Source of the DNA: Desulfuromonadales bacterium
GTDB taxonomy: Bacteria; Desulfobacterota; Desulfuromonadia; Geobacterales; Pseudopelobacteraceae
Direction: 5' to 3'
DNA length: 58,658 bases
Assembly: GCA_016650295.1 (NCBI GenBank)
Contig: JAENWA010000095.1
Coordinates: forward strand, 1 to 58,658
The notes beneath the pieces were generated by a model. It ran no database searches. It was not told the DNA's origin and worked only from the letters and a program-made list of their open reading frames with translations. Position numbers and translations under genes: made by a program. Positions 1,697 through 24,348 of the stretch are shown here, piece after piece (within the stretch, counting starts at the first letter, position 1; the number at the start of each line of letters is the position of its first letter).

Positions 1697-1771
1697 GGGC
1701 GCTTAGCTCAGCGGGAGAGCACTGCCTTCACACGGCAGGGGTCGCAGGTTCGAAACCCGCAGCGCCCACCA
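1697..1771 (+). tRNA. tRNA-Val (anticodon CAC)
   Basis: A full cloverleaf can be drawn. The acceptor stem is GGGCGCT/AGCGCCC, the D-arm GCTC...GAGC, the anticodon stem CTGCC/GGCAG around loop TTCACAC (anticodon CAC), and the T-loop TTCGAAA. The discriminator is A and CCA is encoded (1769-1771). A promoter lies upstream and a terminator follows. Confidence 0.96.
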
Positions 1772-2543: not shown

Positions 2544-3926
2544 TCAGCTGAGCGGCCGGTGATGGCTGCGGCCGAGACCCTTGATCATCTTCCAGAGCGG
2601 CCCCCTGACCTTGAACAGACGGATTGCATCCAGCATGGCGGAACTGGCATTGACCTGCAGACCGGGCACCACCCAGTTTTTACGCTTCATGGCCTCGGAT
2701 GTGATCAGTTCGGCACAGCAGTCCCGGATGGATGGGGAGATATAGAAGACCGGCTCCAGCATGGACTGGCCGGCGGTGATAATTCCTTCCGCGATGGCCG
2801 TGTGATACAAGGCAGTATCAGGATAGATGCGGATGCCGGTCATGGCGATAACCGCTGTCGGCCGCAATTCGTCCATCAGGGCAAAACTCTCCAGAATCGT
2901 CTCGCGGGTCTCGCCGGAACCGCCAAAGAGCATATAATGGGCAAAATCCACCCCCATATCCCGGCAGAGCCGGGATGCCATACGCAAGTCTTCAACCGTG
3001 AAGGATTTTCGCAGGTTCTTCAGCATCCGCTGCGATCCTGAATCGCTGCCAAACTCTACCGCGTCACAGCCGGCCGCCAGCATGTCGTCCATCAACTCAA
3101 CGGTTATGAAATCAGGATTAATGAAGGCCGACCAGTTGACCGGCAGCCGGGCGGCCTTCATGGCGCGGCACAGCTGCGACGCAAAATCGGTCGGATAATT
3201 GAAGATATCATCCACGAAATACAGGTAGGAGACACCATAGTCATTCACCAGGGAGCTGATCTCGGCCAGGATATCCTCAATTGGACGCAGACGCATGACG
3301 CGCCCCTCCAGGTGCGGATAGGTGCAGTAGGAACAGGAAAACGGGCAGCCGCGCTTGGTCTGCACATTGGCCATGCCCCCTTCCCGGTGGTAGCGGTCCA
3401 CGTTGAACAGGCTGCGTTCCGGTGAGCAGATGCGGGAGATCAGGCGGGGCGGTACAAACGATGATGCGCCCGCCACAACCACACCCGGCAGACCGGAGGC
3501 ATCGGCGCCCGAGTCGATACAGGCCAAAAGCAGGGGCAGGACTTCTTCCCCCTCCCCTGCCACGCCGTAGTCTGCGCCGACGGCGGCCAGGATCTCCAGC
3601 GGCATCAGGGAAAATCCGGAACCGCCGACAATCACCGTGCCGCAGACCCGGCAGGTCTCCACGATAGTGCGCAGACCGGGCAGATAGGAGCGGCAGTCGG
3701 GCCAGGTAACGTTGTCCAGATTGCGCAGCGACACGATGATCGCATCCGGGCAATTACCGGCCAATGCGTCAGCCAGCGCCGCTTGCGGGTCTTTTTCAAA
3801 ACAGAGATCAAGCACCGACAGGTTATGGCCGGCCCGGGCCAGCGGTCCGGCCAGGAAGGAAAGTCCGATCGGGAAGACCGGATAGGGGTCGCGTTCCCGG
3901 TTTGCCGATACAAGCAGTACATTCAT
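2544..3926 (-). CDS. B12-binding-type radical SAM enzyme
   Basis: The protein has an N-terminal Rossmann-like cobalamin-binding-type domain (MNVLLVSAN..., GGSGFSLMP, GEGEEVLP) and then a radical SAM barrel with the CxxxCxxC cluster motif GCPFSCSYC near residue 195. Class B enzymes of this kind cleave S-adenosylmethionine reductively and methylate, cyclise or rearrange unactivated carbons; the substrate here is unknown. The start at 3926 forms an ATGA overlap with the upstream thioesterase stop; an in-frame ATG at 3941 is the alternative. It is the last gene of the coupled operon 10695-2544, which contains an acyl carrier protein. A lipid-like or polyketide-like substrate is therefore plausible but inferred. 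Confidence 0.85.
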   Translation of the reverse strand: MNVLLVSANRERDPYPVFPIGLSFLAGPLARAGHNLSVLDLCFEKDPQAALADALAGNCPDAIIVSLRNLDNVTWPDCRSYLPGLRTIVETCRVCGTVIVGGSGFSLMPLEILAAVGADYGVAGEGEEVLPLLLACIDSGADASGLPGVVVAGASSFVPPRLISRICSPERSLFNVDRYHREGGMANVQTKRGCPFSCSYCTYPHLEGRVMRLRPIEDILAEISSLVNDYGVSYLYFVDDIFNYPTDFASQLCRAMKAARLPVNWSAFINPDFITVELMDDMLAAGCDAVEFGSDSGSQRMLKNLRKSFTVEDLRMASRLCRDMGVDFAHYMLFGGSGETRETILESFALMDELRPTAVIAMTGIRIYPDTALYHTAIAEGIITAGQSMLEPVFYISPSIRDCCAELITSEAMKRKNWVVPGLQVNASSAMLDAIRLFKVRGPLWKMIKGLGRSHHRPLS

Positions 3927-4345
3927 GGGATCGCCAACCATTTTGCCAGGTTATCAAGCCGTTCCGCGATGACTTCCGGCAGCCTGAACTGCATGACACC
4001 CTGCCGGTCGGTCAGGGCATGGGTCGTGACGCCGGTTGCCAGCTTGCGGCCGTCAGCGGCGACAATCTCGTTCAGAAAAACCAGAGTCGCTGTCTCGGTG
4101 GGTCGCAGGCTGGTACGCACCAGGATCTCGTCCTTGAAACGGGCCGGGCTCAGGTACTTTAGCTCAAGACTGACGACCGGGCCCAGAAAGCCCAATTCCG
4201 TCAGCTGCGCGGCGTCCAGACCGAAACGACCGGCCAGATCATTGCGCCCGACTTCCATCCAGGCCACATAGTGGCCGTGCCAGACCACATTATAGGAGTC
4301 TACCTCGTTAAAGCGCACCTGTAGATGAGTCTCGTGAAATCTCAT
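3923..4345 (-). CDS. Hot-dog fold acyl-CoA/acyl-ACP thioesterase
   Basis: This 140-residue protein has the 4-hydroxybenzoyl-CoA thioesterase/YbgC signature: VRFNEVDSYNVVWHGHY, with Asp and His in the usual active-site region (here EVDSYNVVWHGHY against the family DxxGxVwhg), then a WMEVGRND helix. Such enzymes release acyl chains from CoA or ACP in the cytoplasm. The start is taken at 4345, where ATGA overlaps the stop of the upstream malonyltransferase-like gene; an ATG at 4363 is also open. It sits between the acyltransferase and the last radical SAM gene, which suggests it offloads or edits the ACP-bound product. Confidence 0.85.
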   Translation of the reverse strand: MRFHETHLQVRFNEVDSYNVVWHGHYVAWMEVGRNDLAGRFGLDAAQLTELGFLGPVVSLELKYLSPARFKDEILVRTSLRPTETATLVFLNEIVAADGRKLATGVTTHALTDRQGVMQFRLPEVIAERLDNLAKWLAIP

Positions 4346-5178
4346 AATTCGTTGTCTATCCATCGGTTGGATTTTGTCAGTGCCCGGCCGGCCCCTACCT
4401 CGTGAAAGGAGCTCGCTCCTGCCAGCCGGAGGGCACGATAGGTCTTTTCCCAGAACACCGGCCGGCAGAGCTCTTCGACCAGAAAACGGGGGATATCAGC
4501 CCGCTTCAGCAGCTTTTGATCCAAATGGTTCAGCAGCGGGATGTGCGGCTCGTGGAAGTCGTATTCAGCCACAATCGTGCGCAGTTCATCGGCGATCTCA
4601 TCGATCAGCGGGCTATGGAGCGGGGCGTCGCAGGAATATACCCCCACCGAGAAAGCACCGGCCGCTTCCGCTTCCACCGTCGCCGACCGGATCTGCTCCG
4701 CATCACCGGACAGAAGATGGTGCCGTGACGTGTTGTAGTTGGCGATAGAGACCCCGTTATGTGCGGCAATGGAGGTCAGCGGATCACCGGTAAGTCCGAC
4801 GACACTCCCCAGGGCATACCTGTGACGTGCCCCCATGGCTGCCAGGCAGACACCGATCCGGCCGGTCAGCTCCAGAGCCGACCCGCTGTCAACCGAACCG
4901 CAGGCTGCCAAGGCAGGATAGATACCCATGCTGTGTTCGGTGATGATATCCGGCGGACCATGTTGACCTGTCAGCAATCCGTAGCGGTACAGGCTCATGC
5001 CTGTGCCGAAAAGCTGCAGGCGGATGCTTTCGGTCAGGTTTAGTCCGCTGGTCTCATGTTCCCGTGGATCATAACCGGTCACGTCCTGACAGCGCCGGGC
5101 TAGCTCGTCAAAAACAGGGTCCCCGGCGGGTATGTCGGCAACCGTCATCGGCTGGCCGGGGAACATGAAACAGTTCAT
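4342..5178 (-). CDS. Malonyl-CoA:ACP transacylase-like acyltransferase (FabD family)
   Basis: The N-terminus MNCFMFPGQ and the motif ITEHSMGIYPALAACG match the FabD/AT fold. EHSMG takes the place of the GHSxG nucleophile elbow, with Glu for Gly at the first position. A later ...YSCDAPLHSPLI stretch resembles the segment holding the active-site His. At 278 residues it is slightly shorter than typical FabD (about 300). It probably loads malonyl or another acyl unit onto the ACP encoded two genes upstream. The start at 5178 overlaps the preceding radical SAM stop as ATGA. No ketosynthase is encoded in the operon, so any chain extension would depend on fatty acid synthase enzymes elsewhere. Confidence 0.8.
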   Translation of the reverse strand: MNCFMFPGQPMTVADIPAGDPVFDELARRCQDVTGYDPREHETSGLNLTESIRLQLFGTGMSLYRYGLLTGQHGPPDIITEHSMGIYPALAACGSVDSGSALELTGRIGVCLAAMGARHRYALGSVVGLTGDPLTSIAAHNGVSIANYNTSRHHLLSGDAEQIRSATVEAEAAGAFSVGVYSCDAPLHSPLIDEIADELRTIVAEYDFHEPHIPLLNHLDQKLLKRADIPRFLVEELCRPVFWEKTYRALRLAGASSFHEVGAGRALTKSNRWIDNEL

Positions 5179-6461
5179 GCCCCGCACCTCTTGCGACGGA
5201 TAGCGGCCCGGAACCCGAGGTTCATCGGCCCGAAGACCTGTACTGAGCGGTGCATCTTGAAGAGCCGGCGATACATGGAGGGAAACGAATAAAATGAGCG
5301 GTTAAGCCAGTCATAGCCTTCCTGAAGCTGCTGGATGGTCATGCCCCTGGGCTGGAAGTTGATATGTTCCATGTCATAGTCGCGCCAGTCGCTGGAGATG
5401 ATGCGACCTTCCGCTTCCAGACGGCGACGGACGGCAGTACCGGGATAGGGGGTCAAGAGCGGGAAAATGGCTGATTCGAGACGCGCCTCCTCGCAGAAAC
5501 GCAGCAGTTTCGGGAAGATCTCGGGGGTATCGCCGTCATTGCCGAGCACAAAGGAGCCCAGGATGCCGATACCGTTGTCGCGGAAGGCCCGGGCATCCGC
5601 CATGAAGGACTGGGCCCGGTTGGTGACCTTGCCCATGGCGGCCAGAGTCTCCTGGCTGAGCGATTCAAAGCCGACGAACATCCCGTAGCAGCCGGACTCT
5701 CCGGCGGCACGCAGCAGTTCGCGATCAGCTGCGAAATCGATCGGCGCATGGGAGAGCCACTTGAAGCCCATCCCCTTCATCCCCTGGAAGAGCGGCAGGG
5801 CATACTTGCGATCAGCCACGATATTGTCATCCACGAAAAAGACGAATGAGTTGGTTTTTTTGAGACTCTGCAACTCGGCCAGCACCTGCTCCACCGGACG
5901 TTTCCGGTAATTGCGCCCGTAAAAGGCGGTTACCGAGCAGAATTCACAGTCAAAGGGACAGCCGCGCGTGGTCTGGACCGTATTGGTAAGCAGATAGTCC
6001 TTGCCTTTGAAGATCTCGCGCCGTGCAAAGGGGATATCGGCCATGCTGATCATCGCATCCGGCTTGTAGACAGGTTGGATGCTGCCAGTGCAAAAATCAG
6101 CCAGAAGCCGGGGCCAGACGACTTCCCCCTCCCCCACCACCACCGCATCAACGTGGGTGAGCGCTTCATCCGGCAGATTGCTGGCGTGAAAACCGCCCAT
6201 GACCACGGTCTTGCCGCGGCTTTTGAAGGCGGCGGCGATCTCATAGGCGCGTGGGGCCTGGGGGGTCATGGCGGTCAGGGCGATCAGGTCGGCATCCGTG
6301 TCGAAGTCGACCTGTTCAAAACTGTCATCACACAGCGCCACCTCCCATTCCAATGGAGTGACGGCGGCAATCGCGGCCAGTGAGAGCGAGGGAAATTTGA
6401 AGGACAATTCCCCCCACAACCTCCCCTTGGGCCATCCGGGGGAGATCAGGAGTACTTTCAT
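5175..6461 (-). CDS. B12-binding-type radical SAM enzyme
   Basis: The 428-residue protein begins MKVLLISPGWPKG and has a cobalamin-binding-type Rossmann domain (GGFHASNLPDEALTHVD, VVGEGEVVWP), then GCPFDCEFC as the 4Fe-4S motif near residue 160. A C-terminal helical extension is typical of BchE/HpnJ-like class B enzymes. The start overlaps the ACP stop by ATGA. Coupled directly behind the acyl carrier protein, it may act on an ACP-bound acyl chain, but this is context only. The canonical DxHxxG B12 ligand motif is not evident, so base-off cobalamin binding without a protein His ligand, or no cobalamin, are both possible. Confidence 0.85.
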   Translation of the reverse strand: MKVLLISPGWPKGRLWGELSFKFPSLSLAAIAAVTPLEWEVALCDDSFEQVDFDTDADLIALTAMTPQAPRAYEIAAAFKSRGKTVVMGGFHASNLPDEALTHVDAVVVGEGEVVWPRLLADFCTGSIQPVYKPDAMISMADIPFARREIFKGKDYLLTNTVQTTRGCPFDCEFCSVTAFYGRNYRKRPVEQVLAELQSLKKTNSFVFFVDDNIVADRKYALPLFQGMKGMGFKWLSHAPIDFAADRELLRAAGESGCYGMFVGFESLSQETLAAMGKVTNRAQSFMADARAFRDNGIGILGSFVLGNDGDTPEIFPKLLRFCEEARLESAIFPLLTPYPGTAVRRRLEAEGRIISSDWRDYDMEHINFQPRGMTIQQLQEGYDWLNRSFYSFPSMYRRLFKMHRSVQVFGPMNLGFRAAIRRKRCGA

Positions 6462-6715
6462 GTGCGGTGTTCCCCGATATATCCTGCCATGCTGCGCACC
6501 GAGGCAAAAACGATGCTGCCGGTGGCGGCGTCCGGAACAACCACGCCGAATTCCTTCTCCATGGCCACTACCAGCTGCAGGGCATCGATGGAGTCCAGCC
6601 CTAGCCCATCGCCGAACAACGGGGCATCGGTCTCGATCTCATCAGGCGACATCCCCTCGATACGCAGGCTGTCAATAATCATCAGTTTTACCTTTTCAAT
6701 CAAATCGTCACTCAT
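6458..6715 (-). CDS. Acyl carrier protein
   Basis: The 85-residue acidic protein has the phosphopantetheine attachment motif LGLDSIDALQLVV, with the Ser in DSID around residue 41, and the four-helix ACP pattern. It carries acyl chains as thioesters in the cytoplasm. It starts at 6715 with an AAGGAA ribosome-binding site and ends in an ATGA overlap with the next radical SAM gene. DSID in place of the DSLD of housekeeping AcpP marks it as a specialised ACP. It is the first gene after a heptamer-repeat hairpin that separates it from the acyltransferase gene upstream. Confidence 0.92.
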   Translation of the reverse strand: MSDDLIEKVKLMIIDSLRIEGMSPDEIETDAPLFGDGLGLDSIDALQLVVAMEKEFGVVVPDAATGSIVFASVRSMAGYIGEHRT

Positions 6716-6752
6716 TCACTATTCCTTTCTTATTTGTAACTACTCAAGGTGG

Positions 6753-6853
6753 TTAGGCTGAAGACTGAAGACTGAAGGTTACTAGTTGAAATATCATTAG
6801 GTTGGTGAGCGTGCCGAGTTTCCCTTCAGCCTTCAACCTTCAGCCTTCAACCT
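6753..6853. repeat. Heptamer-type inverted repeat, locus 2
   Basis: The left arm is repeated GACTGAA units (6757-6778). The right arm is CTTCAGC/CTTCAAC units (6823-6852), spaced by about 45 bp. The arms are complementary and each is periodic at 7 bp. The right arm abuts the stop of the minus-strand acyltransferase gene (6856). The flank TAACTACTCA(A)GGTGG just left of it recurs at the 57-kb copy. Confidence 0.75.
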
Positions 6854-6855
6854 GA

Positions 6856-7758
6856 TCAGTTTGTTTTATCCGCTCCATTACCTTTTCCGAAAAAATCATA
6901 AAAATTGTACCATTGATCGGGGTACGCCCGTATATATCGCTCAAACACCGCCAGCAGCTTCTCCATGCCGGAGCGGATGGCGCTGCCATGCTCCCCGTGA
7001 CCACCTGTGAAGAAGATCGGCTCTTCCATGATGGTCGTGTAGCTGCCGTTTTCCTCCATCAGGACAAAAACCGGAATTACCGGCGCACCGCTGGCCAGGG
7101 CAAGATAGGCTGTCCCCACCGGGATATTGGTCGGTTGACCGAAGAAATCGATCAGAATGGTATGAGAGGAGCCATCCCGATCACCGAGAATCGCCAGCAC
7201 CTCGTTCCGCCGCAAGGCATTGACCGCCTCGATAATGGCCAGCGGCGAGGAATCATCCCGGTCGACATATATGAAACGGACGCCGCGTTCCTGCCGAACC
7301 GCTTCACGAAGCTCATTTACCTTTTCATCCGGCTCGCGGAAGGTCAACATGTTGATTGTATAGCCCATATCGGCCAGACCCAGACCACCCAGTTCCCAGC
7401 CCCCGAGATGGGGTGAAACCAGGATCGCGCCGCTGCCGGCCGCCAGAGCCTGATCGAGCGTTACACTGCTGCTGCGCCGCCCGATCATGGCCTGGAGTTT
7501 TTCACCCCTGAGCCGCATCAGCAGCATCTCATCACACCAGTTGTGGCTGAACATGCGAAAGGTCGAAAACACCAGCCGTTCCACATCATCCCTGCCGGTG
7601 ATCACCCGCAGATTGGAGCGCACCCCCCGTCGTGTATCCGTCAGCAAAAGGTAAAACAGCCCGCCCCAGAAGAATGTGAAGGGCGGGAACAGCCAACGCG
7701 GCACCAGGATGGTGAATAGATTTATAAGGAACAGATTGAGGTTGCTGTAAATTTTCAA
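6856..7758 (-). CDS. LpxL/HtrB-type lysophospholipid/lipid A acyltransferase
   Basis: The 300-residue protein starts with a hydrophobic anchor (NLFLINLFTILVPRWLF) and has the HX4E catalytic motif HLGGWE near residue 117, followed by RDGS (about residue 195) and a C-terminal DQWYNFYDFF motif. All are typical of the lipid A late acyltransferase family. Such enzymes transfer an acyl group from ACP to a lipid at the cytoplasmic face of the inner membrane. Placed next to a dedicated ACP, it may use that ACP as donor. The start codon is TTG at 7758 and has a weak ribosome-binding site, so the start is less certain. Only 68 bp separate it from the upstream radical SAM gene. Confidence 0.85.
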   Translation of the reverse strand: MKIYSNLNLFLINLFTILVPRWLFPPFTFFWGGLFYLLLTDTRRGVRSNLRVITGRDDVERLVFSTFRMFSHNWCDEMLLMRLRGEKLQAMIGRRSSSVTLDQALAAGSGAILVSPHLGGWELGGLGLADMGYTINMLTFREPDEKVNELREAVRQERGVRFIYVDRDDSSPLAIIEAVNALRRNEVLAILGDRDGSSHTILIDFFGQPTNIPVGTAYLALASGAPVIPVFVLMEENGSYTTIMEEPIFFTGGHGEHGSAIRSGMEKLLAVFERYIRAYPDQWYNFYDFFGKGNGADKTN

Positions 7759-7826
7759 CGCAATAATCCGATATCGGCAATAGTGTTACAGGGGGTTGGA
7801 TGATTGAGGGGTTACAGGCGGTACCC

Positions 7827-9206
7827 TCATCTTTTTTTACCGGTCTTCTTCATCTTTGCCGGATGGTCCCTGAACTCCTCTTCCCAAGCCGGATCGGCGA
7901 TCGCGCCATAGGCAGCCGAATATTCATCCATCTTATCCGCCAGACCGGTAAAGATCTCTTCGGCACCTTCATGGGTTGCGTAGGCACCTTCACTGGTAAA
8001 GATCTCCCGGCCCACGTCGGGATGGTCGATCAGCATGCAGGGCCGCAGCAGGTTGTCGTGTTCACCCTGCTTTTCCCTGATTTTCCTGAAAAACGGTGAG
8101 GCCAGCGCATCGCGCAGGGAAGTCCTGCGGATGTTATCCACGGCCACGTGGCAAAAGACGCACGGTTCGATATCTCCGTTGGCATTAATGTGAAAATATT
8201 TTCTGCCGCCGGCCAGACAGCCGGAAACCATTGGTCCGTCGTTCCAGAAATCGATAAAGAGCATCGGTTTGCTGTCACGGAACCCGGCCACGCTGCGGCG
8301 CAGATGATCCCGCTGTTCTGGTGTGGGCATCAGTCCGGTTTCCGGCTTTCTTCCGACCGGGACGTAGGAGAAGAGCCACAGGGCAAAGACCCCCTTGGCG
8401 AGAAGCATGTCGATGTACTCGGGATTGGTGATGATGTGCGAGTTTTTGCTGGAATGGGTGAACGAACCGCAGAAGGAAAGCCCCCCTTCACGCAGCAGAT
8501 CCATGGCCCGCATGACTTTCTTGAAATGCCCGGCACCACGGCGTTCGTCGGTTTCCGGCTCGTACCCTTCCAAAGAGAAGGACGGCATGACATTACCGAC
8601 CTCGGTCAATTTTTCGACCATCTTTTCGTCGATCAGACCGCCATGGGTGAAGACCAGAAAGGCCATGTCACTGTGCTTTTTGAATACGTCAAAGATGCCC
8701 TCCATGTAAAAGGGTTCTCCGCCGGAAATAACGGCAAAATAGATGCCCATCTCCTTCATCTGCATCAGGATCGAATCGAGCTCGTCCAGGGACAGTTCCA
8801 GCGATTTACCGTAGTCGCCGGCGTAGCATCCGTAACATTTCAGGTCGCACTTCATGGTGGGGCTGATCACTACCGTCGAAGGAGGATAGAATCCGTTGGC
8901 ATCGGCCCATTCTTTACGCTTGTTGGTGCCGCTCAAAAGATGATTGATGGCCAGGTTGCTGATCCATTTGTCCCGCTGGTTGGGATGCAGGTCGCGCAGA
9001 ATGCGGCGGGGAAACTCGATGCTGGGATGCTTGTCACGGACTAGTCCCCTGATCCAGCGGATGCGTTCCTTGTAGTAGTCCTTCTTGGGAATCATCTCCA
9101 TCAGATGGGTCATCTTGATCAGCGTCTCATCGGAGGAGTTGGTCGCCAGGGACAAGAGATAGGTAAGCACTTTTTCTTTGGTATAATTTTTCAGGGTGTT
9201 GATCAT
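7827..9206 (-). CDS. Radical SAM/SPASM-type protein
   Basis: The classic radical SAM cluster motif CDLKCYGC (CxxxCxxC) lies near residue 125, followed by the SAM-binding ISGGEPF motif. A C-terminal SPASM-like region has GCLAGGRKYFHI, EPCVFCH and RPCML cysteines for auxiliary clusters. The N-terminal 110 residues are helical and unassigned. No cobalamin domain is seen, unlike the other radical SAM proteins here. SPASM enzymes commonly modify peptides, but proteins of this architecture also occur in lipid and heme pathways, so the substrate is open. ATG 9206 is preferred because GAGGA sits nine bases upstream; GTG 9224, overlapping the GT2 stop, is the alternative. Confidence 0.85.
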   Translation of the reverse strand: MINTLKNYTKEKVLTYLLSLATNSSDETLIKMTHLMEMIPKKDYYKERIRWIRGLVRDKHPSIEFPRRILRDLHPNQRDKWISNLAINHLLSGTNKRKEWADANGFYPPSTVVISPTMKCDLKCYGCYAGDYGKSLELSLDELDSILMQMKEMGIYFAVISGGEPFYMEGIFDVFKKHSDMAFLVFTHGGLIDEKMVEKLTEVGNVMPSFSLEGYEPETDERRGAGHFKKVMRAMDLLREGGLSFCGSFTHSSKNSHIITNPEYIDMLLAKGVFALWLFSYVPVGRKPETGLMPTPEQRDHLRRSVAGFRDSKPMLFIDFWNDGPMVSGCLAGGRKYFHINANGDIEPCVFCHVAVDNIRRTSLRDALASPFFRKIREKQGEHDNLLRPCMLIDHPDVGREIFTSEGAYATHEGAEEIFTGLADKMDEYSAAYGAIADPAWEEEFRDHPAKMKKTGKKR

Positions 9207-9220
9207 TTGATGATTCCTCG

Positions 9221-9883
9221 TCACATATTGCGTAAAAAAGTCATACTGATAGTAAAGGTATCCTTGACGGGCCGGTAATGGCTGGTTGAGCGTCCATCGG
9301 CAACCCGTGCGGCCACCGGGAGGGAACCGACCGTAAAACCGCTCTTCCAGGCCTTCAAAAAAATTTCCATCTCCAGGGCGTACCCATTAGAATTCAATGA
9401 TACGTTTTTTACCACCTCACGAGAATAGTACCTGAAACCGGACTGACTGTCGGTGATCTCGAATCCGGTACGTTTCCAGATGCACCAGACACCGATACGG
9501 TTCCAGATTTTTCGGAGTCCGGCCATCTCTTCGAACTGGGTGTGACGGGATGCAATCAGGATACCCCACTTACCGCCTTGAGCAGAAGCAATAAGTAAAG
9601 GAATAGCTGAAACATCATGCTGGCCGTCGGCATCAACCGTGACCACTCCATCAAAACCGGCCTGTATGGCCCAGGCAAAACCGGTTTTCAGTGCAGCGCC
9701 CTTGCCAAGATTCCGTTCATGCTTGAGCAGCGTCACCGGCAATCCCGACAGCAGAGCCGACGTAGCATCGGTCGAACCGTCATCCACCAGAACTATCGGC
9801 AAGCCATGTTCCAGGCACTCTCGAACAACTGCCGGAATGGTTTTTTCAGCGTTATATGCAGGAATCAGGATGCAAGTTGCCAC
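9221..9883 (-). CDS. GT2 glycosyltransferase, dolichyl-phosphate mannose synthase-like
   Basis: The 220-residue protein has the GT-A fold markers ILIPAYNAEKTI at the N-terminus, VLVDDGSTDAT, and the metal-binding VTVDADGQHD, followed by DSQSGFRYYS. There is no C-terminal membrane segment, so it resembles the soluble DPM1-like class. These enzymes transfer a sugar from a nucleotide or polyprenyl donor to a lipid acceptor at the inner membrane. GTG 9883 has AAGGAG upstream and overlaps the deacetylase gene by 19 bases, so translation is probably coupled. Confidence 0.88.
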   Translation of the reverse strand: MATCILIPAYNAEKTIPAVVRECLEHGLPIVLVDDGSTDATSALLSGLPVTLLKHERNLGKGAALKTGFAWAIQAGFDGVVTVDADGQHDVSAIPLLIASAQGGKWGILIASRHTQFEEMAGLRKIWNRIGVWCIWKRTGFEITDSQSGFRYYSREVVKNVSLNSNGYALEMEIFLKAWKSGFTVGSLPVAARVADGRSTSHYRPVKDTFTISMTFLRNM

Positions 9884-10695
9884 TGGTCTACCAGCTCCTT
9901 GAGGGTGATAAATTGATAACGCCGGAACAATTCACTCAATCGTGGTGTTGCATCCGTTCGGGTCCCATAGGATACGAACCGTTTCAGAGCGGGCAGGTCA
10001 AGCCGGGGACCGGTTGGGTCCACCTCGCGGGGATGAAGATACAGCACAGCCGGGTGATGTCTGCGGTTATACGCTTCAATTGTCGAACAGATCATCCGGA
10101 AAGGAAAGAACCTGAATCCCCATCCGCCACCGGTCGGCAGGTTTCCCATCCAGGAGCGGGTCACCATCGGCGGAATCTCCCACAGTCCCGTTCCCTGACC
10201 CTCAAGACGGTAGGCCGTGCGGCTGCCGCGTGAACAACCAACGAAGGGAAGCGGGTTGAGGCTTGAATCATATCGGTAGCCCTGCTCCCGCAGAATGGCG
10301 AAGGCCCAGCCGTTTTGTTCTGACAGGGACCATTGCGGCGCCCTGTATCCAAACGGTCGCTGCCCGGTCTGTTCGACCAGTAACTGCTCGGTGAGTTGCA
10401 GTTCATCCCGGAACTGTTGCGGTGTCAGATCCGTCACCAGACGGTGCGAATAACCATGGGAGGCGATTTCATGCCCTGCTGAACAGATCATGGGCGCTAA
10501 AGCCGGATCGTTTTCGACCACGGAACCAAGCATGAAAAACGTGGCTTTCCGGCAATGTTCCGCAAGCAGAGCCAGGATTTTCTCCAGGTTACGGCGAACC
10601 CGCCATGACTCGCGCGGAGGGACGGGCACAGCCCCTCCCGGACTGCAGACATGGTACCAATCCTCGACATCAACTGTTAATACATTGTGCGTCAG
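9865..10695 (-). CDS. NodB-type polysaccharide deacetylase, probably starting at CTG
   Basis: The NodB-like domain shows TVDVEDWYHV (metal-binding/catalytic Asp motif), the HGYSH metal-binding motif, and the YRAPQWS motif. A C-terminal region with YLHPREVDP is typical of the DUF3473-associated subgroup found in exopolysaccharide loci. It would remove acetyl groups from N-acetylated sugars. The first standard start in frame is GTG 10629, but that would cut off TVDVEDW. Upstream of it only CTG 10695 is available before an in-frame TGA. CTG is preceded by GGAG at 8 bases and by a promoter, so I place the start there (276 residues). It is the first gene of the coupled minus-strand cluster. Confidence 0.8.
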   Translation of the reverse strand: MTHNVLTVDVEDWYHVCSPGGAVPVPPRESWRVRRNLEKILALLAEHCRKATFFMLGSVVENDPALAPMICSAGHEIASHGYSHRLVTDLTPQQFRDELQLTEQLLVEQTGQRPFGYRAPQWSLSEQNGWAFAILREQGYRYDSSLNPLPFVGCSRGSRTAYRLEGQGTGLWEIPPMVTRSWMGNLPTGGGWGFRFFPFRMICSTIEAYNRRHHPAVLYLHPREVDPTGPRLDLPALKRFVSYGTRTDATPRLSELFRRYQFITLKELVDQWQLAS

Positions 10696-10728
10696 TCAAG
10701 ACACTCCGATAATCATCATTAAATAGTT

Positions 10729-10758
10729 ATTATCGCATGACTTATGACGTCAAGTCAA
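10729..10758 (-). promoter_or_regulatory. Candidate promoter of the lipid/glycan cluster
   Basis: On the minus strand TTGACT (10758-10753) and GATAAT (10734-10729) are 18 bp apart. The start point would leave a leader of about 27 nt before the CTG start of the deacetylase gene. Confidence 0.5.
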
Positions 10759-10763
10759 TATAA

Positions 10764-11027
10764 CTATCCCGGCCCTGACTGGCAGAATACGTATGCCATT
10801 GAAACCGTTTCTGAAAAAGGTGTCCTAGTGAATCTCCCGTTTACAACTGCATCATGATGTTCCGGCTGCATAAAAAGCAGATCGGAAGGAAAACCGTCAG
10901 CCGGTTCCATCACAATTAACATATCTGCCATACATGGCGGCCACTGTTTGATAAGATTGAAATTCCTGCTCCAATATTCCAACGATGCCGGAATCTCAAA
11001 AATAACTGCTATTCCGGAATCTCCATG
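10764..11027 (-). pseudogene. Unrecognised gene remnant
   Basis: An open minus-strand stretch of 87 codons between an in-frame TAG and the stop at 10764 encodes protein-like sequence (for example FEIPASLEYW, WPPCMADMLI, LLFMQPEHHD). The nearest start is TTG 10982. Its biased, tryptophan- and proline-containing composition looks like the C-terminal part of a real enzyme whose 5' end is gone. I cannot name the family. It fills most of the 400-bp gap between the divergent deacetylase and radical SAM genes. Confidence 0.35.
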
Positions 11028-11095
11028 CTATATTGACCGAATTGATTTACAGGCAAAATTGACCCCGAAAATACGAAATCACGCGGAGCATCTGA

Positions 11096-12517
11096 TTGAA
11101 AATACTTTTTCTGCACCCCTTCGGCAGCAATTTTTTGAAGGGAATGAAGGACATTACCACGCTATTTAACCTCATGCCGCCACTGGGTTTGCTGAGTATA
11201 GCCGCCTGGCTTGAGAAACACGGCATCGATGTCGAGATCATCGACGGGTATGCCTCCCGGGAAACTCATGAGGAGATGGTTGCAAAGGTCATTACATCCG
11301 GCTGCAGTGCTGTCGGTTTTTCCTGCACCACCTCGTCATTTCCCGAAACGAACCGTATCGCCACCCTGCTGAAGGAGAAGGCGCCGCATATAGTCACGAT
11401 TCTCGGGGGAGCCCATTCCTGCACCATCGGCGCCCCGCTGCTGGACTCCTATCCGGCCCTGGATTATCTGGTGATCGGTGAAGGAGAAAACACCATGCTG
11501 GAGCTGGCCCGGGCCGGTTTCAGAAACGTGGAGGCCATTCCCGGCGTCGCTTATCGTGACAGGTACTGCAAAGGCACTCTTTCCGCCCAGCGTGAACTGA
11601 TCAAAGACCTAGACAGCCTCCCTTTCCCCGCCTACCACCTGCTGCCGAATTTTCCCCGGCTTTACAAACTGCCGATCTTCAGTTATCCCACGTCGCCCAA
11701 CACCAGCATCATCTCCAGCCGCGGCTGCCCCTACGCCTGTTCCTACTGCGACCGTTCGGTCTTCTCGCGCGGTTTCCGCTTCAACTCGCCCGAATATATC
11801 CTGGAGCATGTGGCCATGCTCAACAGGGACTACGGTATCCGCCACGTTTTTTTCTATGACGACCTGTTCACCTTCGACCGCAAGCGGGTGGCGGAATTCT
11901 GTGAACTGAAGGAGAAAAAAGGGGTCCGGGTCAGCTACAACTGCATCGCCCGCCTGGAGCATGTGGATGAGGAACTGCTGGCTCTCCTGAAGAGTTCCGG
12001 CTGCTGGCAGGTCAATTTTGGTATCGAATCAGGCGACCCCGAGATTTTGAAGAAACATCGCAAATTTTTCGGTCTGGATGAAGTGGGGCAGAAGTTGCTG
12101 ATGGTTAAAAAAGCCGGCATGCGGGTCAAGGGGCTTTTCATGGTCGGACTGCCGGGCGAGGATGAGACCGCCATCCGCCGCACCATTGATTATGCCCTCT
12201 CCCTGCCGCTGGACGAGATCAACGTCACCAAGTTCACCCCTTTCCCCGGCGCACCGGTTTACAAGACCATCCGTGAGTTCGGCGAGTTTGATGAGAACTG
12301 GGAGCTGATGAACTGTATCAACACGGTTTTTGTGCCAACCGGGATGACCCGGGATCAGATCAACAACCTCTATGACGAATTTATCCACCGTTTTTATCAT
12401 CGCAGGCATATCACCCTTGGCTATGCCAAGATGCTCTGGAAATCTCCCCACAGCATCTACTCCTTCCTGAGTCATCTGCCGCAGATACTCGCGTTCCAGA
12501 TGAAGCAGAAGTGGTAA
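11096..12517 (+). CDS. B12-binding-type radical SAM enzyme
   Basis: The 473-residue protein starts at TTG 11096 with GGAG 7 bases upstream. The N-terminal cobalamin-binding-type domain runs from MKILFLHPFG through GGAHSCTIGAP and IGEGENTML. The 4Fe-4S motif GCPYACSYC is near residue 218, followed by VFFYDDLFTF and NFGIESGDPEIL of the barrel. The C-terminal helical part resembles BchE-like anaerobic cyclases. It is transcribed away from the ACP cluster and is followed by the lipid A deacylase gene, so it may share that pathway, but its substrate is unknown. The fold is clear; the role is not. Confidence 0.85.
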   Translation: MKILFLHPFGSNFLKGMKDITTLFNLMPPLGLLSIAAWLEKHGIDVEIIDGYASRETHEEMVAKVITSGCSAVGFSCTTSSFPETNRIATLLKEKAPHIVTILGGAHSCTIGAPLLDSYPALDYLVIGEGENTMLELARAGFRNVEAIPGVAYRDRYCKGTLSAQRELIKDLDSLPFPAYHLLPNFPRLYKLPIFSYPTSPNTSIISSRGCPYACSYCDRSVFSRGFRFNSPEYILEHVAMLNRDYGIRHVFFYDDLFTFDRKRVAEFCELKEKKGVRVSYNCIARLEHVDEELLALLKSSGCWQVNFGIESGDPEILKKHRKFFGLDEVGQKLLMVKKAGMRVKGLFMVGLPGEDETAIRRTIDYALSLPLDEINVTKFTPFPGAPVYKTIREFGEFDENWELMNCINTVFVPTGMTRDQINNLYDEFIHRFYHRRHITLGYAKMLWKSPHSIYSFLSHLPQILAFQMKQKW

Positions 12518-12591: not shown

Positions 12592-13179
12592 ATGATAAAG
12601 ACAACCCTGACCCTGTTCTTCATGCTCTTCATCCTGCTGCTGCCCCTGAATGTCCGGGCCGATAATGTGGCCTCCACCGCCAAAGGCGAATTCGGCTTCC
12701 TCACCGGCTACGGCAGTTCTTTTGTCGGTTTTGGCGAAACCCGTCACACGATACAAACCTGGGATGTAATTCTACGGGCAGGTTTTTACCTGTCTGACGA
12801 GGTCGGCATAGGTAGCTGGTACCAGGGCAGACACGAGCTGCTGCTGGAACTGCCCTACCAGATGGCGGTAAACCGGGGAGGCCGTTCCGTTGTGGGTGGC
12901 TATGCCCTTGGGCACTGGCGCTTTACCAGCCTGGACAAGCTTGTACCCTACGTCTTGGCGGGGGGCGGGCCGCTGTTTGTTGACCTGGGACTGCCGACCA
13001 TGGGTTCGAAACTCTGCTTCAGCTATCAGGGGGGCACCGGGCTGCAGTATTTTATAGACAAGAAGACCGTACTGGATGTGGAGTACCGCTACCATCACAT
13101 CTCAAATGCAGGCACGGCTGAGCCTAATGAACCGATCAATTCAAACAAGCTATTGTTCGGTCTTTCATACTATTATTGA
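12592..13179 (+). CDS. pagL: PagL-like lipid A 3-O-deacylase (acyloxyacyl hydrolase family)
   Basis: This 195-residue protein has a signal peptide (residues 1-23, ending NVRA) and alternating beta-barrel sequence ending in ...LLFGLSYYY, a typical outer membrane C-terminal aromatic. Near the C-terminus, YRYHHISNAGT followed by NEPIN corresponds to the PagL active site, in which His and Ser (here HHIS) act with a downstream Glu. PagL removes the 3-O-linked acyl chain from lipid A in the outer membrane. It lies 75 bp after the radical SAM gene, with no separate promoter obvious. Its presence beside an LpxL-type acyltransferase supports an envelope-lipid theme. Confidence 0.8.
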   Translation: MIKTTLTLFFMLFILLLPLNVRADNVASTAKGEFGFLTGYGSSFVGFGETRHTIQTWDVILRAGFYLSDEVGIGSWYQGRHELLLELPYQMAVNRGGRSVVGGYALGHWRFTSLDKLVPYVLAGGGPLFVDLGLPTMGSKLCFSYQGGTGLQYFIDKKTVLDVEYRYHHISNAGTAEPNEPINSNKLLFGLSYYY

Positions 13180-13492: not shown

Positions 13493-13580
13493 ACTGGTAA
13501 TATGTTCTAGACGAACCACGGCACCGCAGGAAGGATGAACAGGCAAAACAGCAGGTTCATGCCCTGGGGATCTTCTACCC
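13493..13580. repeat. Element-end repeat, left copy
   Basis: The core CCACGGCACCGCAGGAAGG at 13516-13534, followed by ATGAACAGGC and later CTGGGGATCTTCTACCC, matches three copies near the other end of the element (cores at 25657, 25829 and 26031). Between 13299 and 13492 I see no gene or structure. Confidence 0.6.
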
Positions 13581-13581
13581 T

Positions 13582-13776
13582 TCATGACAACCGCTTACGG
13601 GACAGCTTTTCCGAGCTCCGCCGGAGGGCTTCACGAAACGCCATGGCCCGGAGTTCATATGAAGCATTGCCGCTGCTCGAAGGGATTGGACTGGGGCTTG
13701 TGTTACGGGCAGCTAGAAGAGCGCCCACCTCTTCTCGGATGATCTGCCGGAACATCTTGATATCATCCGGACTCAT
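13582..13776 (-). CDS. Small hypothetical protein of the element
   Basis: The 64-residue charged protein (MSPDDIKMFRQIIREEVG..., ending KLSRKRLS) has no recognisable domain. Its start overlaps the stop of the upstream gene as ATGA, which supports it being translated. It is the last gene before attL. A DNA- or protein-binding accessory role is possible but nothing shows it. Confidence 0.5.
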   Translation of the reverse strand: MSPDDIKMFRQIIREEVGALLAARNTSPSPIPSSSGNASYELRAMAFREALRRSSEKLSRKRLS

Positions 13777-14138
13777 GCCGGCTCCTCACATACCTTACCG
13801 ACAGCGGCCATGTCCACCATCTTCTTCTTGGCCAGTGCCCGGGCTGCTGCCTGGCGCTGGGGGTCGCTCTCGATCTCCTTACAACGGCAGAGGGCGCGAA
13901 GATCCTCTGCAATCTCACAATTATCCTGCCTTCCTGGTGGCGGCCCAATAATGCCCTGAATAATCCCCTTCATGCTTGCCACGAGAGACTGAAGATCACC
14001 AATGCGGCCAGGTATATATTCAGTGCCTTGGTCCCAAACTTGGGAAAGGTCATAAAGATCCCGATCCATAACATTCAGGTGAGCATTAACCCGGATAATT
14101 TTCATTTCCGTATGCATATCGATCATGTCAGGCCTCAC
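13773..14138 (-). CDS. Hypothetical protein of the element
   Basis: The 121-residue protein is mostly helical. It has a run of four cysteines in the second half (CEIAEDLRALCRCKE, then VCEEPA) that could bind a metal, and an Ala/Lys-rich helix (QAAARALAKKKMVD). It overlaps the RadC-HTH gene by 11 bases and the next small gene by 4, so the three form one operon. The family is not recognised. Confidence 0.55.
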   Translation of the reverse strand: MRPDMIDMHTEMKIIRVNAHLNVMDRDLYDLSQVWDQGTEYIPGRIGDLQSLVASMKGIIQGIIGPPPGRQDNCEIAEDLRALCRCKEIESDPQRQAAARALAKKKMVDMAAVGKVCEEPA

Positions 14139-14895
14139 TCGTTGCAGGCTCCAGGGGTGTTTGTATTAGCAGAAGTTTTCTGTAGTCAATATTAAATACG
14201 GCGGAAATCTTCTGGGCCTCGCCTTCGGTCATTTTGCGTAAACCGGCTTCTATTTGCGAGATATAGCACTGATGGATGCCTGTGGTATCGACAAGCTTTT
14301 TTTGAGTCATCTTTGCTCGCTTTCTAAATTCCTTCACCAGTTCGCCGATGGAAACCAAAAACCTGTTTGCCGGTAATAGTTCCTTTTTGTAGGGTGGGCT
14401 GGGGGTGATGCTCATTGCGCTGGCTTGATTATTGCCCATGTATCCTCGCTCAACAAAGCTCATGTATTCCCCGTCGCCTATAACGATATGGTCAAGGACC
14501 TCGATGCCGATTATTCCGCCGGCTTCACACAAACGCCGGGTTATAGCGATATCGTCAGTGCTGGGGGCTGGATCTCCGGTGGGGTGGTTATGCACGCAGA
14601 TAATTGCCTTGCTTCCGTTATGTACGGCGGCCTTGAAGACCTCTCGGGGATGTACAACTGCCTGACTAAGTGAGCCGATGGAGACAGTTTCTCTGGCAAT
14701 GATGCTGTTCTTACCGTCCAGGTGCAGCACAACAAAATGTTCGCGGTCCAGGTTCGCCATATCCCGGCATGCGTCGAATATCATACTTGGGTTTGTGTAA
14801 CGTACTTCCTTCTCGCTTACCCGGCCGATCTTCACAAGTTTTAGTTCCTGAATAGCCGGCATTCTCAATTGATCTTGTTTCCTTCCTCCTGTCAT
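14128..14895 (-). CDS. RadC-type JAB-domain protein fused to a C-terminal XRE helix-turn-helix
   Basis: The N-terminal 150 residues form a RadC/DUF2466 domain with the JAB metal motif VHNHPTGDPAPSTDD (about residues 100-114). The C-terminal segment from about residue 185 is a helix-turn-helix of the XRE/Cro type (AKMTQKKLVDTTGIHQCYIS, then IEAGLRKMTEGEAQKI). RadC-like proteins are common on mobile elements; their enzymatic role is unsettled. Ordinary RadC carries its extra DNA-binding part at the N-terminus, so a C-terminal Cro-like domain is unusual. It might make the protein a repressor as well as an effector of the element. It heads a three-gene operon, 198 bp after the stop of the long operon. 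Confidence 0.8.
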   Translation of the reverse strand: MTGGRKQDQLRMPAIQELKLVKIGRVSEKEVRYTNPSMIFDACRDMANLDREHFVVLHLDGKNSIIARETVSIGSLSQAVVHPREVFKAAVHNGSKAIICVHNHPTGDPAPSTDDIAITRRLCEAGGIIGIEVLDHIVIGDGEYMSFVERGYMGNNQASAMSITPSPPYKKELLPANRFLVSIGELVKEFRKRAKMTQKKLVDTTGIHQCYISQIEAGLRKMTEGEAQKISAVFNIDYRKLLLIQTPLEPATSEA

Positions 14896-15045
14896 GATGT
14901 TGCCCTCCCCGCGGTTGTATGGTTTCTATGGGGATATCCTGCTGAAAATTAAATGATTGCACAAGCTGATATTTTATTTTATATTCTGAATATATTTTAT
15001 TTTTCAGTATGTTATAAATAATAATAGTTTACGATCTTCCACAAA

Positions 15046-15075
15046 AAATGCCCCAAAGGTTTCCCCCTGGGGCAT
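15046..15075 (-). terminator. Terminator of the element's main operon
   Basis: ATGCCCCA and TGGGGCAT form an 8-bp stem. On the minus strand it is followed by TTTTTT. It lies just beyond the stop of the 170-residue coiled-coil gene. Confidence 0.8.
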
Positions 15076-15093
15076 TGATTACTCAAGACTTTT

Positions 15094-15606
15094 TCAGACA
15101 AACTGAAAGGGTGGATATCCCGGCCTTAACCCCTGTGTATCACGGTAGTGATCATCCAGCGCCTGCTTGAGCAGTCGTAGGTCTTTCTGGTCTCCGGCGT
15201 TACTGGCCAGGTGTTCCAGTTCGTCCCACTCATGAACCGTGTAACAGCCTTTGGCGATGATTAGCGCCCTGGCCGCCTGATAACTATTATTGTGTTCAGT
15301 CGCGGCCTGCTCCCTGTTGATCTGGGTTATCTGATCATAAAGGGGTTGGAGCCGGCTTTCAATAATCCGGATAGCGGCCTGAATCGGTTCTCCTGTTTTC
15401 TCCCTCAAGATCCTCAATTCCGCCCTGAAGGAATCGAGCGCCTCATCCGACGCCTCGCCCAGTGCAACCTTTGCAAGCATCTCCGGGAACTGTTGTTTTT
15501 CCATCACTGCCAGCTTTTCAGCGGCCTGATTCATCCCGTTCAACAGGCCTGTCCTTGCCTGGTTGATCCGGACAACCTCATTTTGTAACCTCTGCAACTC
15601 TTCCAT
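15094..15606 (-). CDS. Hypothetical coiled-coil protein of the element
   Basis: The 170-residue protein is strongly helical, with heptad-like sequence through residues 1-115 (MEELQRLQNEVVRINQ..., QPLYDQITQINREQ). A C-terminal part (CYTVHEWDELEHLASNAGDQ) follows. No enzyme motif is seen. It is the last gene of the alpA-headed operon, 40 bp after the giant gene, so it may be a partner of that protein. The family is not recognised. Confidence 0.6.
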   Translation of the reverse strand: MEELQRLQNEVVRINQARTGLLNGMNQAAEKLAVMEKQQFPEMLAKVALGEASDEALDSFRAELRILREKTGEPIQAAIRIIESRLQPLYDQITQINREQAATEHNNSYQAARALIIAKGCYTVHEWDELEHLASNAGDQKDLRLLKQALDDHYRDTQGLRPGYPPFQFV

Positions 15607-15646
15607 GGTTCATTCTCCTTTTTTGGTTGTGTGTCCTGCGGATAGG

Positions 15647-20824: not shown

Positions 20825-20870
20825 GATTTACTCTCCTTTTCTGAGCAGCTAGGCTGTCTGATCTGTGGTC

Positions 20871-21125
20871 CTATGCGCCGTATTCTTTCAATCGGCCTTC
20901 AGCGGCACTTGCCAAATTGATAACCATCCAGGCAAGGGTATTGTTATTGTGATTCAATATGGTGTTTTCTCGTGAAAGCTGTTTGCCTTGTTCCAGGTGG
21001 TTAGCGGCTGTATCGAGTGCAAATACCAGGGCTTCAAGGCATTTGCGGCGATCGACCCGCCCTGTGCCTGAAAGGTTGCCGATTACCTCATTCAACAGGG
21101 CCTGATTGTTGGTCTGGTTGGTCAT
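20871..21125 (-). CDS. Small hypothetical protein of the element
   Basis: The 84-residue polar helical protein (MTNQTNNQALLNEVIGN..., ALDTAANHLEQGKQLSREN) has no recognised domain. It overlaps the helicase stop by 4 bases (ATGA) and is 46 bp from the giant gene, so it is part of the same transcript. It could be a helicase partner, but nothing shows this directly. Confidence 0.6.
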   Translation of the reverse strand: MTNQTNNQALLNEVIGNLSGTGRVDRRKCLEALVFALDTAANHLEQGKQLSRENTILNHNNNTLAWMVINLASAAEGRLKEYGA

Positions 21126-22474: not shown

Positions 22475-23238
22475 AGTGCAAGTTTCTCCTGTGCTTCATC
22501 CTGCTGCCAAAAATGCCAATTTTCAAACAGGGTGCCTTCGGGCGGTATGATCCCGGCTGCACGGTAGGCGCCGGCGTTGTGCTTCTCGTCCTTGGCGCCG
22601 GGCAGTCGGTTTATCTGTGATTTAAACATGGTGATATCCCTCTTGCTGGCAAGCCATTCGTCTTGACAGGTCAGAAACCAGCAGGCGGTAATTACAAGCG
22701 GCTTAAGGCCGTAGGCGGTCAGTAGTTCCTTGACCGGCTTAAAGTCTTTACCGCTGGTCAGGTATGGCTTTCCTTGGGTGCGTTCGTAGGCGTATGCCCA
22801 CCAGAAAATAAAAGTTTGATGATCCCCTGAAGGAGGGCGTTTCGACGGAGGAGATACGCAAGAAGATTCTTTCTTATTCTTATTCTTTATAGTACGGAAC
22901 GCCGGTGGAACGTCTGTGGAACGTAAGTGGAACGCTGGCTGTTGTAACTCATTGTTATTGAATGGTTCTAGCGGAACGTCTGTGGAACGCTGGTGGAACG
23001 CGAGTGGAACGTTTGTTGGGTTGCTTTTGGTTACCTGATCTAACACTTCAATTTCCTTGAGAAATCTGCTTACTCGGGGGTGTGTCCACTGCCATATTTT
23101 GGCATATCCTCGAAGAGTTCCGGCTTTTCCGTTGTTCAGGTCAAGCGCAACGGAAAACGCAGCTTCAACACGGGTGAAGGGGCGGCCTGTTGGTAGGTCT
23201 GAGGATAGAAATTTAGGTACAGAGACCCAGGCAATCAC
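22471..23238 (-). CDS. Replication initiator-like protein (lambda O type) containing the origin
   Basis: The 255-residue protein has an N-terminal segment like the helix-turn-helix part of phage replication proteins (FTRVEAAFSVALDL..., TLRGYAKIWQWTHPRVSRFL). A low-complexity middle contains repeats of FHxRSTDVP, and a C-terminal region (FIFWWAYAYERTQGKPYL) may contact helicase. The middle is encoded by eight 11-bp iterons. This layout, initiator gene with an internal iteron array followed by AT-rich DNA and then the helicase gene, is that of lambda O/ori/P. It overlaps the terminase gene and the helicase gene by ATGA. The family assignment rests on layout and partial motifs. Confidence 0.7.
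   Translation of the reverse strand: MIAWVSVPKFLSSDLPTGRPFTRVEAAFSVALDLNNGKAGTLRGYAKIWQWTHPRVSRFLKEIEVLDQVTKSNPTNVPLAFHQRSTDVPLEPFNNNELQQPAFHLRSTDVPPAFRTIKNKNKKESSCVSPPSKRPPSGDHQTFIFWWAYAYERTQGKPYLTSGKDFKPVKELLTAYGLKPLVITACWFLTCQDEWLASKRDITMFKSQINRLPGAKDEKHNAGAYRAAGIIPPEGTLFENWHFWQQDEAQEKLAL
22861..23011. other. Iteron-type replication origin inside the initiator gene
   Basis: GTGGAACG recurs at 22905, 22916, 22927, 22982, 22993 and 23004, with GGAACG-only versions opening each block (22894 and 22971). That makes two blocks of four at an exact 11-bp period, and the blocks are 77 bp (7 x 11) apart. A 36-bp AT-rich spacer separates them. A T/A-rich tract (22861-22893) lies beyond the last iteron in the direction of transcription, where lambda-type origins melt. 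The 11-bp period is not a multiple of three, so protein coding alone does not explain it. Confidence 0.75.
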
Positions 23239-24187: not shown

Positions 24188-24348
24188 GAGAATGTCTCGC
24201 TAATCTGACTGGTATCGGTGAAATTCATTAGCTGGATAATACGATCAAGAAACCTTTTGACGGCTTCCGGATCGTCCATCTCTATTGCGGCGTCAAGCTG
24301 AAGAAATGCCCGGTCAAGCATGTTTTGTGCGGCGCTGGAACTGTTCAC
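24184..24348 (-). CDS. Very small coupled ORF (54 residues)
   Basis: The reading frame starts at GTG 24348, overlapping the alpA stop as GTGA, and ends in an ATGA overlap with the next gene. It encodes a 54-residue acidic helical protein (NMLDRAFLQLDAAIEMDDPE, then AVKRFLDRIIQLM). The exact overlaps on both sides and its filling of an otherwise empty gap support it as a real gene. The function is unknown. Confidence 0.6.
   Translation of the reverse strand: MNSSSAAQNMLDRAFLQLDAAIEMDDPEAVKRFLDRIIQLMNFTDTSQISETFS

Follow-up and report, generated by a model that had tools for sequence, protein, structure and literature searches.

Gene content of the window

The DNA analysed here, referred to throughout as the window, is the complete 58,658-nucleotide contig JAENWA010000095.1 (C95) of a Desulfuromonadales bacterium whose genome (GCA_016650295.1) comprises 4.07 Mb in 123 contigs. 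The subject is a gene cluster near one end of the window that encodes a dedicated acyl carrier protein (ACP), acyl- and glycosyl-transfer enzymes and four radical SAM (S-adenosylmethionine) proteins (Table 1). Nine genes lie on the minus strand and are transcribed in the order deacetylase, GT2 glycosyltransferase, radical SAM/SPASM enzyme, LpxL-type acyltransferase, ACP, DUF4070 B12 radical SAM enzyme, FabD-like transacylase, thioesterase and a further B12 radical SAM enzyme, henceforth the 2544 protein; a third B12 radical SAM gene and a PagL gene occupy the plus strand. An initial annotation made from the sequence alone had described a coupled operon with two B12-type and one SPASM-type radical SAM enzymes, a divergent third B12-type enzyme and PagL alongside. 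All of the open frames at these places match the named families in Pfam and NCBIfam profile searches and, with homologue-supported starts, the coupling is seen as four exact ATGA overlaps (3923-3926, 4342-4345, 5175-5178 and 6458-6461).

Table 1 Features of the gene cluster and its flanks in the window.
Feature	Position	Strand	Evidence
tRNA-Val	1697..1771	+	On the side where relatives continue into FabG and ketosynthase
B12-binding radical SAM, TIGR04072 (rSAM_ladder_B12)	2544..3926 (open reading frame listed to 3941, conserved start 3926)	-	382.9 bits, cut-off 360
Hot-dog thioesterase (4HBT/YbgC type)	3923..4345 (open reading frame listed to 4363)	-	PF13279, PF03061; ATGA overlap
FabD-like malonyl/acyl-CoA:ACP transacylase	4342..5178 (open reading frame listed to 5187)	-	PF00698 above cut-off; fabD and mdcH models below cut-off
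B12-binding radical SAM with DUF4070	5175..6461	-	PF04055, PF02310, PF13282
Dedicated ACP, motif GLDSID	6458..6715	-	PF00550; NF006617 67.7 bits, just under cut-off 70
LpxL/HtrB-type acyltransferase	6856..7758	-	PF03279, E 1.3e-27
Radical SAM/SPASM enzyme	7827..9206 (open reading frame listed to 9224, conserved start 9206)	-	PF04055, PF13186
GT2 glycosyltransferase, polyprenyl-phosphate sugar synthase-like	9221..9883	-	PF00535; NF058614 93 bits, below cut-off 370
Polysaccharide deacetylase (DUF3473 type)	9865..10695 (canonical open reading frame only to 10629)	-	PF01522, PF11959
Divergent third B12-binding radical SAM	11096..12517	+	PF04055, PF02310
PagL-type outer-membrane lipid A 3-O-deacylase	12592..13179	+	PF09411, E 6e-20

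The catalytic residues of the cluster are retained across homologues. The CX3CX2C motif is invariant in all four radical SAM proteins (2544, at residues 199/203/206; 5175; 7827; and 11096), as judged from 45, 80, 46 and 8 aligned homologue rows, respectively, which represent 41, 73, 41 and 7 distinct sequences since some loci were fetched twice. All eight Cys of the SPASM enzyme and the HX4E motif of the LpxL-type enzyme are invariant in 46/46 rows. In the FabD-like enzyme, Ser86 and His191 are kept in 45/45 rows and Arg110 in 42/45; each of these last three alignments contains 41 distinct sequences. Structure-database searches with the four radical SAM proteins returned distant relatives only.

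Conservation of the gene order

GTDB genomes were scanned with the DUF4070 enzyme, and the best 80 of 577 confirmed matches were examined. Organisms of the Geobacter, Pelotalea, Oryzomonas and Trichlorobacter types account for 35 close loci among these 80 (L031-L065; identity 71-89%). In 28 of the 35 the nine operon genes are all present with their order unchanged, and the remaining seven are interrupted by contig ends. The check for conserved synteny proposed in the initial annotation thus returned a kept order among the close loci rather than scattered orthologues, and chance neighbours are ruled out as an explanation by the 28 intact loci and the contig-cut state of the other seven. Extra genes intervene in some conserved loci, including additional B12 radical SAM genes in mid-cluster. 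At the other 45 of the 80 loci (identity of 50% or less) the neighbourhood is mostly not present.

The two plus-strand genes accompany the operon less regularly, the third radical SAM gene (at least 74% identity) and PagL (at least 63%) each being found in 5/35 close loci. Other families of the phylum encode homologues of the third radical SAM enzyme (45-48%) immediately after the remaining two B12 radical SAM genes and ahead of a GT2-LpxL-ACP-ketosynthase run, and a PagL homologue (41%) lies within the L176 cluster. As a separate observation, a Cas6-like protein is encoded immediately upstream of the deacetylase at L045:1809-2723, and proteins of similar length occupy that place in other loci.

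The ketosynthase half of the pathway

The absence of a ketosynthase noted in the initial annotation holds for this contig, on which a search of the genome's own contigs found no match to the cluster ketosynthase, but does not hold for the pathway. The gene run of 21/35 close loci includes a ketosynthase of FabF type that belongs to a single family and is accompanied by FabG (21), a short Cys-less ketosynthase partner (21), LolA (21), a dehydratase (19), LolB (14) and an MMPL exporter (12). These counts are lower bounds, as the stretches stop at 10 kb or at contig ends; family models identified the dehydratase in L045 and all the other members in L036. Among the 14 loci lacking the ketosynthase, five also lack the last radical SAM gene and five have about 2 kb or less beyond it. 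A protein family of 990-1176 residues is encoded beside LolA and LolB in several Geobacter-type loci (L050:18304-21273, L129:2751-6233 and L132:11389-14919) and is alpha-amylase-like as judged from the L050 member.

The same half was found elsewhere in the genome from which the window derives. A ketosynthase 77% identical to that of L036 is encoded at C59:49966-51162, and C59 also carries FabG, the Cys-less partner, a FabZ-like dehydratase frame and a LolA-like gene. An MMPL/HpnN-like exporter, 62% identical to the L036 exporter, lies at C26:12449-14974 together with a LolB-like gene, whose own product has no NCBIfam match at 1e-8 and is called LolB-like from the L036 homologue. Because the C59 and C26 genes lie inside their contigs, the three-way split is taken as real unless the contigs are misassembled, and the ketosynthase-free look of the window follows from this genome keeping the cluster in separate pieces. 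At positions 1-2600 of the window, a tblastn search with 24 reference proteins for remnants of the ketosynthase half returned the end of the 2544 gene and otherwise only matches of E 0.02 or worse. Genes of the GDP-mannose-dehydratase, nucleotidyltransferase and aminotransferase families near the C59 genes show no sign of cluster membership.

The ketosynthase retains its Cys, both His and the Lys in 34/34 aligned rows (31 distinct sequences). In the partner, the Cys is replaced by Phe (32 rows) or Tyr (1 row) in all 33 rows (30 distinct sequences), the first His is lost in 33/33 and the second in 32/33, a residue pattern that resembles that of a chain-length factor. A FabF paralogue of G. sulfurreducens reads Phe, Pro, Ala, Ala, Gly, Arg, Ala at seven reported sites, according to the available portion of Rattray et al. 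2009 (PMC2649909), and the cluster partner reads Phe, Ser, Thr, Ala, Gly, Arg, Ala, agreeing at 5/7. We infer that the Geobacter cluster noted by those authors is the same cluster as the one described here.

Co-occurrence of the two halves was scored in 57 genomes, including that of the window, with orthologues defined by at least 71% identity for the DUF4070 radical SAM enzyme and at least 62% for the ketosynthase. The DUF4070 orthologue is present in 40/57 genomes; 38 have both genes, two the radical SAM gene alone (G032 and G035), one the ketosynthase alone (G003) and 16 neither. A fragmentary ketosynthase in G028 (52% complete) was left uncounted and would otherwise make a second ketosynthase-only genome. 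Where both genes occur, they are no more than 20 kb apart on one contig in 32 genomes (3.4-15.1 kb) and on different contigs in six; in at least G012 and G033 of the genomes with such a break, one or both genes stand at a contig end, so that the break may be an assembly artefact.

Position within the TIGR04072 family

The 2544 protein passes TIGR04072, an NCBI model named for ladderanes. In a phylum sample of 395 genomes, 156 contain a match at 1e-60 and 84 pass the cut-off. Neighbourhoods were surveyed at 47 loci, mostly from the top of that list, one of which is the second, below-cut-off copy of the window's own genome, without a ketosynthase. By best-hit labels, some of them at 20-30% identity and with losses at contig ends, a ketosynthase and an ACP each occur at 32 loci, a DUF4070-type radical SAM gene at 28, thioesterase at 23, LpxL at 22, FabG at 21, GT2 at 19, the third radical SAM gene at 17 (12 at 45% identity or more), MMPL at 14, the partner ketosynthase at 12, dehydratase at 10, LolA at 9, SPASM at 7, FabD at 6, PagL at 4 and deacetylase at 2.

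A tree was built from 57 TIGR04072 proteins and three outgroups, whose very long branches leave the root unsure. The window protein falls in a Geobacter-type clade (11 rows, support 100/100), to which 12 rows from other families attach to form a group of 23 (100/99). It lies outside a separate group of 21 high-scoring rows (99/96; 482-698 bits), to which it is 31-37% identical. As judged from this radical SAM tree, the cluster would represent a branch beside the high-scoring members of the ladderane-named family.

Comparison with known clusters

The available portion of Rattray et al. 2009 (PMC2649909) reports gene clusters similar to those of anammox bacteria in Geobacter members and in Pelobacter carbinolicus. 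With these ladderane-type clusters the present one shares the B12 radical SAM enzymes, extra ketosynthases including a Cys-less one, ACPs, a glycosyltransferase and Geobacter as a carrier. A deacetylase-like gene is also listed there for the anammox cluster (Kuste3351) and hence is not special to this variant. The present cluster differs in its constant FabD-like transacylase, its constant SPASM enzyme and its split into three. The ladderane-type combination of B12 radical SAM enzyme, ACP and ketosynthases including a Cys-less one is linked in 21/35 of the relatives' loci, whereas in this genome its members lie on separate contigs and are unlinked on C95. The operon genes that were annotated include no phytoene-desaturase-like gene, a result that does not extend to the unsearched remainder of the genome; a Pyr_redox_3-type flavin adenine dinucleotide protein is encoded on C26 (L123:2824-3927), about 8.5 kb from the exporter. 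The annotated operon genes likewise include no phenylacetyl-CoA-ligase-like gene.

The gene table of the aryl-polyene cluster APEEc, in the available part of PMC8253772, lists ACP, thioesterase, glycosyltransferase/acyltransferase, ketosynthase, ketoreductase, dehydratase, LolA-like, LolB-like and RND functions. Aryl-polyene clusters and the present one have in common an ACP, LpxL-type and GT2-type enzymes, a thioesterase, a ketosynthase with a partner ketosynthase, a ketoreductase, a dehydratase, LolA-like and LolB-like proteins and an RND/MMPL exporter. The aryl-polyene set of ketosynthase and partner, ketoreductase, dehydratase, thioesterase, glycosyltransferase/acyltransferase, LolA, LolB-like protein and RND exporter is complete in this genome, distributed over three contigs. 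Unlike aryl-polyene clusters, the annotated operon genes include no second ACP, a FabD-like transacylase and at least three radical SAM enzymes are present, and the ketosynthase is closer to FabF. An acyl-ACP synthetase for starter activation (ApeH) is absent among the recurring deacetylase-to-exporter genes of the relatives, for each of which one representative was annotated, the rest of the genome not being searched.

Hopanoid HpnJ and HpnR share the B12 radical SAM superfamily with the cluster, and the best NCBIfam model for the exporter is HpnN, far below its cut-off. The best scores reach 176 bits for HpnJ (cut-off 577.6) and 113 bits for HpnR (cut-off 650). A plain hopanoid or BchE-type reading of the cluster's radical SAM enzymes was rejected on such scores, far under the cut-offs.

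These comparisons modify two statements of the initial annotation. That no described pathway has this set was too strong, as similar Geobacter clusters were noted in 2009 (PMC2649909, available portion). The proposed difference from ladderane and aryl-polyene clusters does not stand either, given a ketosynthase half in the same genome, a passed TIGR04072 cut-off and aryl-polyene-like attachment and export genes. This kind of cluster had thus been noticed already, and the present variant is set apart by the constant FabD-like transacylase, the constant SPASM enzyme and the three-way split. No report assigning a known product to the same cluster was found in the literature searched. Beyond Rattray 2009, that search, outside which subscription papers mostly and preprints wholly fell, returned neither a product for the Geobacter cluster nor a description devoted to it, and the available text of the Pelobacter genome paper (PMC3543383) makes no mention of such a cluster.

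Proposed pathway and alternative readings

An ACP-centred lipid cluster with radical SAM tailoring, as originally suggested for the window, is still the best reading, and its synteny is conserved. With a probability of roughly 0.6, a type II fatty-acid/polyketide pathway is divided here over three places, the window being one of them, and would make a polyene-type acyl chain that is tailored by radical SAM enzymes and carried on an exported outer-membrane glycolipid. By its gene complement it looks like a rearranged member of a known, chemically unsolved kind of cluster related to the proposed ladderane and the aryl-polyene clusters.

Starting from the observed gene content, conservation, linkage in relatives and intact active sites, a pathway can be proposed whose chemistry is modelled on the aryl-polyene route (PMC8253772, available part). 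The FabD-like enzyme would load malonyl units onto the dedicated ACP, and the ketosynthase with its inactive, chain-length-factor-like partner would extend the chain, which FabG and the dehydratase would process. Since the genes that recur in the operon include no enoyl reductase, the chain would remain unsaturated. The B12 radical SAM enzymes may then C-methylate or cyclise it and the thioesterase edit or release it, after which the LpxL-type enzyme would transfer it to a glycolipid built by the GT2 enzyme and the deacetylase. Delivery to the outer membrane would be by LolA, LolB and the exporter, and PagL may trim the lipid there. Such a pathway would work much like that of aryl polyenes, with the radical SAM enzymes and the transacylase in place of the aromatic starter gene. 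More specifically, and only tentatively, the product could be an unseen outer-membrane glycolipid of Geobacter-type anaerobes, with a polyene chain in which the three B12 radical SAM enzymes and the SPASM enzyme introduce several methyl groups or close rings; if so, it would be the counterpart of aryl polyenes in a life without oxygen and a biochemical step towards ladderane chemistry.

Several observations weigh against the glycolipid pathway. The Fisher p of 4e-11 for co-occurrence of the two halves ignores the relatedness of the genomes. One genome from the same genus (G003) retains the ketosynthase half, as a FabG-ketosynthase-partner-dehydratase-LolA-LolB-MMPL run beside the third radical SAM gene (85%; L181:9930-18625), with no close DUF4070 match found. 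G032 and G035, with the radical SAM orthologue alone, are both drafts. In four close loci (L043, L047, L048 and L059) the 4.5-7.2 kb that follow the last radical SAM gene contain no ketosynthase; genomes matching two of these loci have it 10-15 kb away. In the window itself, the deacetylase frame (9865-10704) is interrupted at 10696-10698 by a stop codon directly downstream of the homologue-supported start, and the first canonical start (10629) falls beyond the conserved TVDVEDW motif; the gene may be damaged, may use an unusual start codon or may contain a draft sequence error. When the FabD-like enzyme is aligned pairwise with E. coli FabD, the malonyl-binding Arg is shifted by one residue, though an Arg is kept in most homologues, so malonyl is only a putative substrate of the enzyme. 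The ketosynthase scores higher with FabF chains (274 bits) than with 6qsp_A (154 bits), the latter an aryl-polyene ketosynthase. On the side of the literature, the Desulfotalea cluster is described as strikingly syntenic with the anammox cluster, yet no ladderanes were found (available portion of Rattray 2009, PMC2649909), and expression of anammox genes in E. coli gave no ladderane, the proteins being undetected in single-operon strains (available portion of PMC4790861). The latter source adds that no pure-culture isolate of anammox bacteria existed at the time.

An alternative in which the LpxL-type enzyme places a radical-SAM-modified, ACP-bound chain on lipid A, with PagL and the deacetylase trimming the same molecule, would fit the LpxL-type family, the nearby PagL and the adjoining sugar deacetylase and GT2 genes. 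Lipid A is transported by the Lpt route. The LolA-, LolB- and MMPL-type genes in the same gene run of the relatives are unneeded for lipid A, and a lipid A acylation variant appears unlikely.

Those export genes, which indicate a surface lipid, also bear on an anaerobic polyunsaturated fatty acid or hydrocarbon pathway, which was proposed for the related Desulfotalea cluster (Rattray 2009, PMC2649909, available portion). C101 and C98 of the window's own genome (G000) contain frames of 2161, 2328 and 2713 codons that match ketosynthase and perhaps encode polyunsaturated-fatty-acid- or polyketide-type megasynthases; such frames could account for these products, and this reading is considered quite improbable for the window.

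A ladderane or other polycyclic lipid as the product is suggested by TIGR04072 membership, by the similar anammox and Geobacter clusters (available portion of PMC2649909) and by the common set of B12 radical SAM enzymes. The negative results from Desulfotalea and from E. coli given above, and the position of the window protein outside the high-scoring group, make it very improbable.

Least credible is the idea that the set works without a ketosynthase and acts on chains supplied by ordinary fatty acid synthesis, a reading prompted by the window contig and by the two draft genomes with the radical SAM orthologue only, and rejected in view of a dedicated ketosynthase pair that is on C59 here, adjacent in most relatives and tightly co-occurring.

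Ladderane biosynthesis is unsolved. Geobacter-type bacteria, with several named strains among the carriers, have a conserved relative of the ladderane clusters whose B12 radical SAM enzymes belong to the same family and whose chain-building and export genes form a full set; this relative offers a tractable place to learn how radical SAM enzymes act on ACP-bound chains.

Other features of the window

Next to PagL, positions 13516-27545 probably constitute an integrative element. An integrase-like gene at 26046-27281 (297 bits, cut-off 434) adjoins tRNA-Leu (27460-27545), and the same region contains a DnaB-like helicase (21122-22474) and a RadC-like gene (14128-14895). A 29-base repeat occurs there both at 13516 and at 25657, and the frame at 15647-20824, which is 1725 codons long, has no Pfam match. 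Further along, in the vicinity of a histidine kinase and a GT2 gene, two BchE-type B12 radical SAM proteins are encoded at 31665-33140 (391 bits) and 35385-36893 (422 bits), both below the cut-off of 481. The stretch at 37339-50113 contains TPR proteins, PMT_2-type glycosyltransferases and large frames without a Pfam match, and the G+C content falls to 0.40-0.45 at 46-54 kb of the window.

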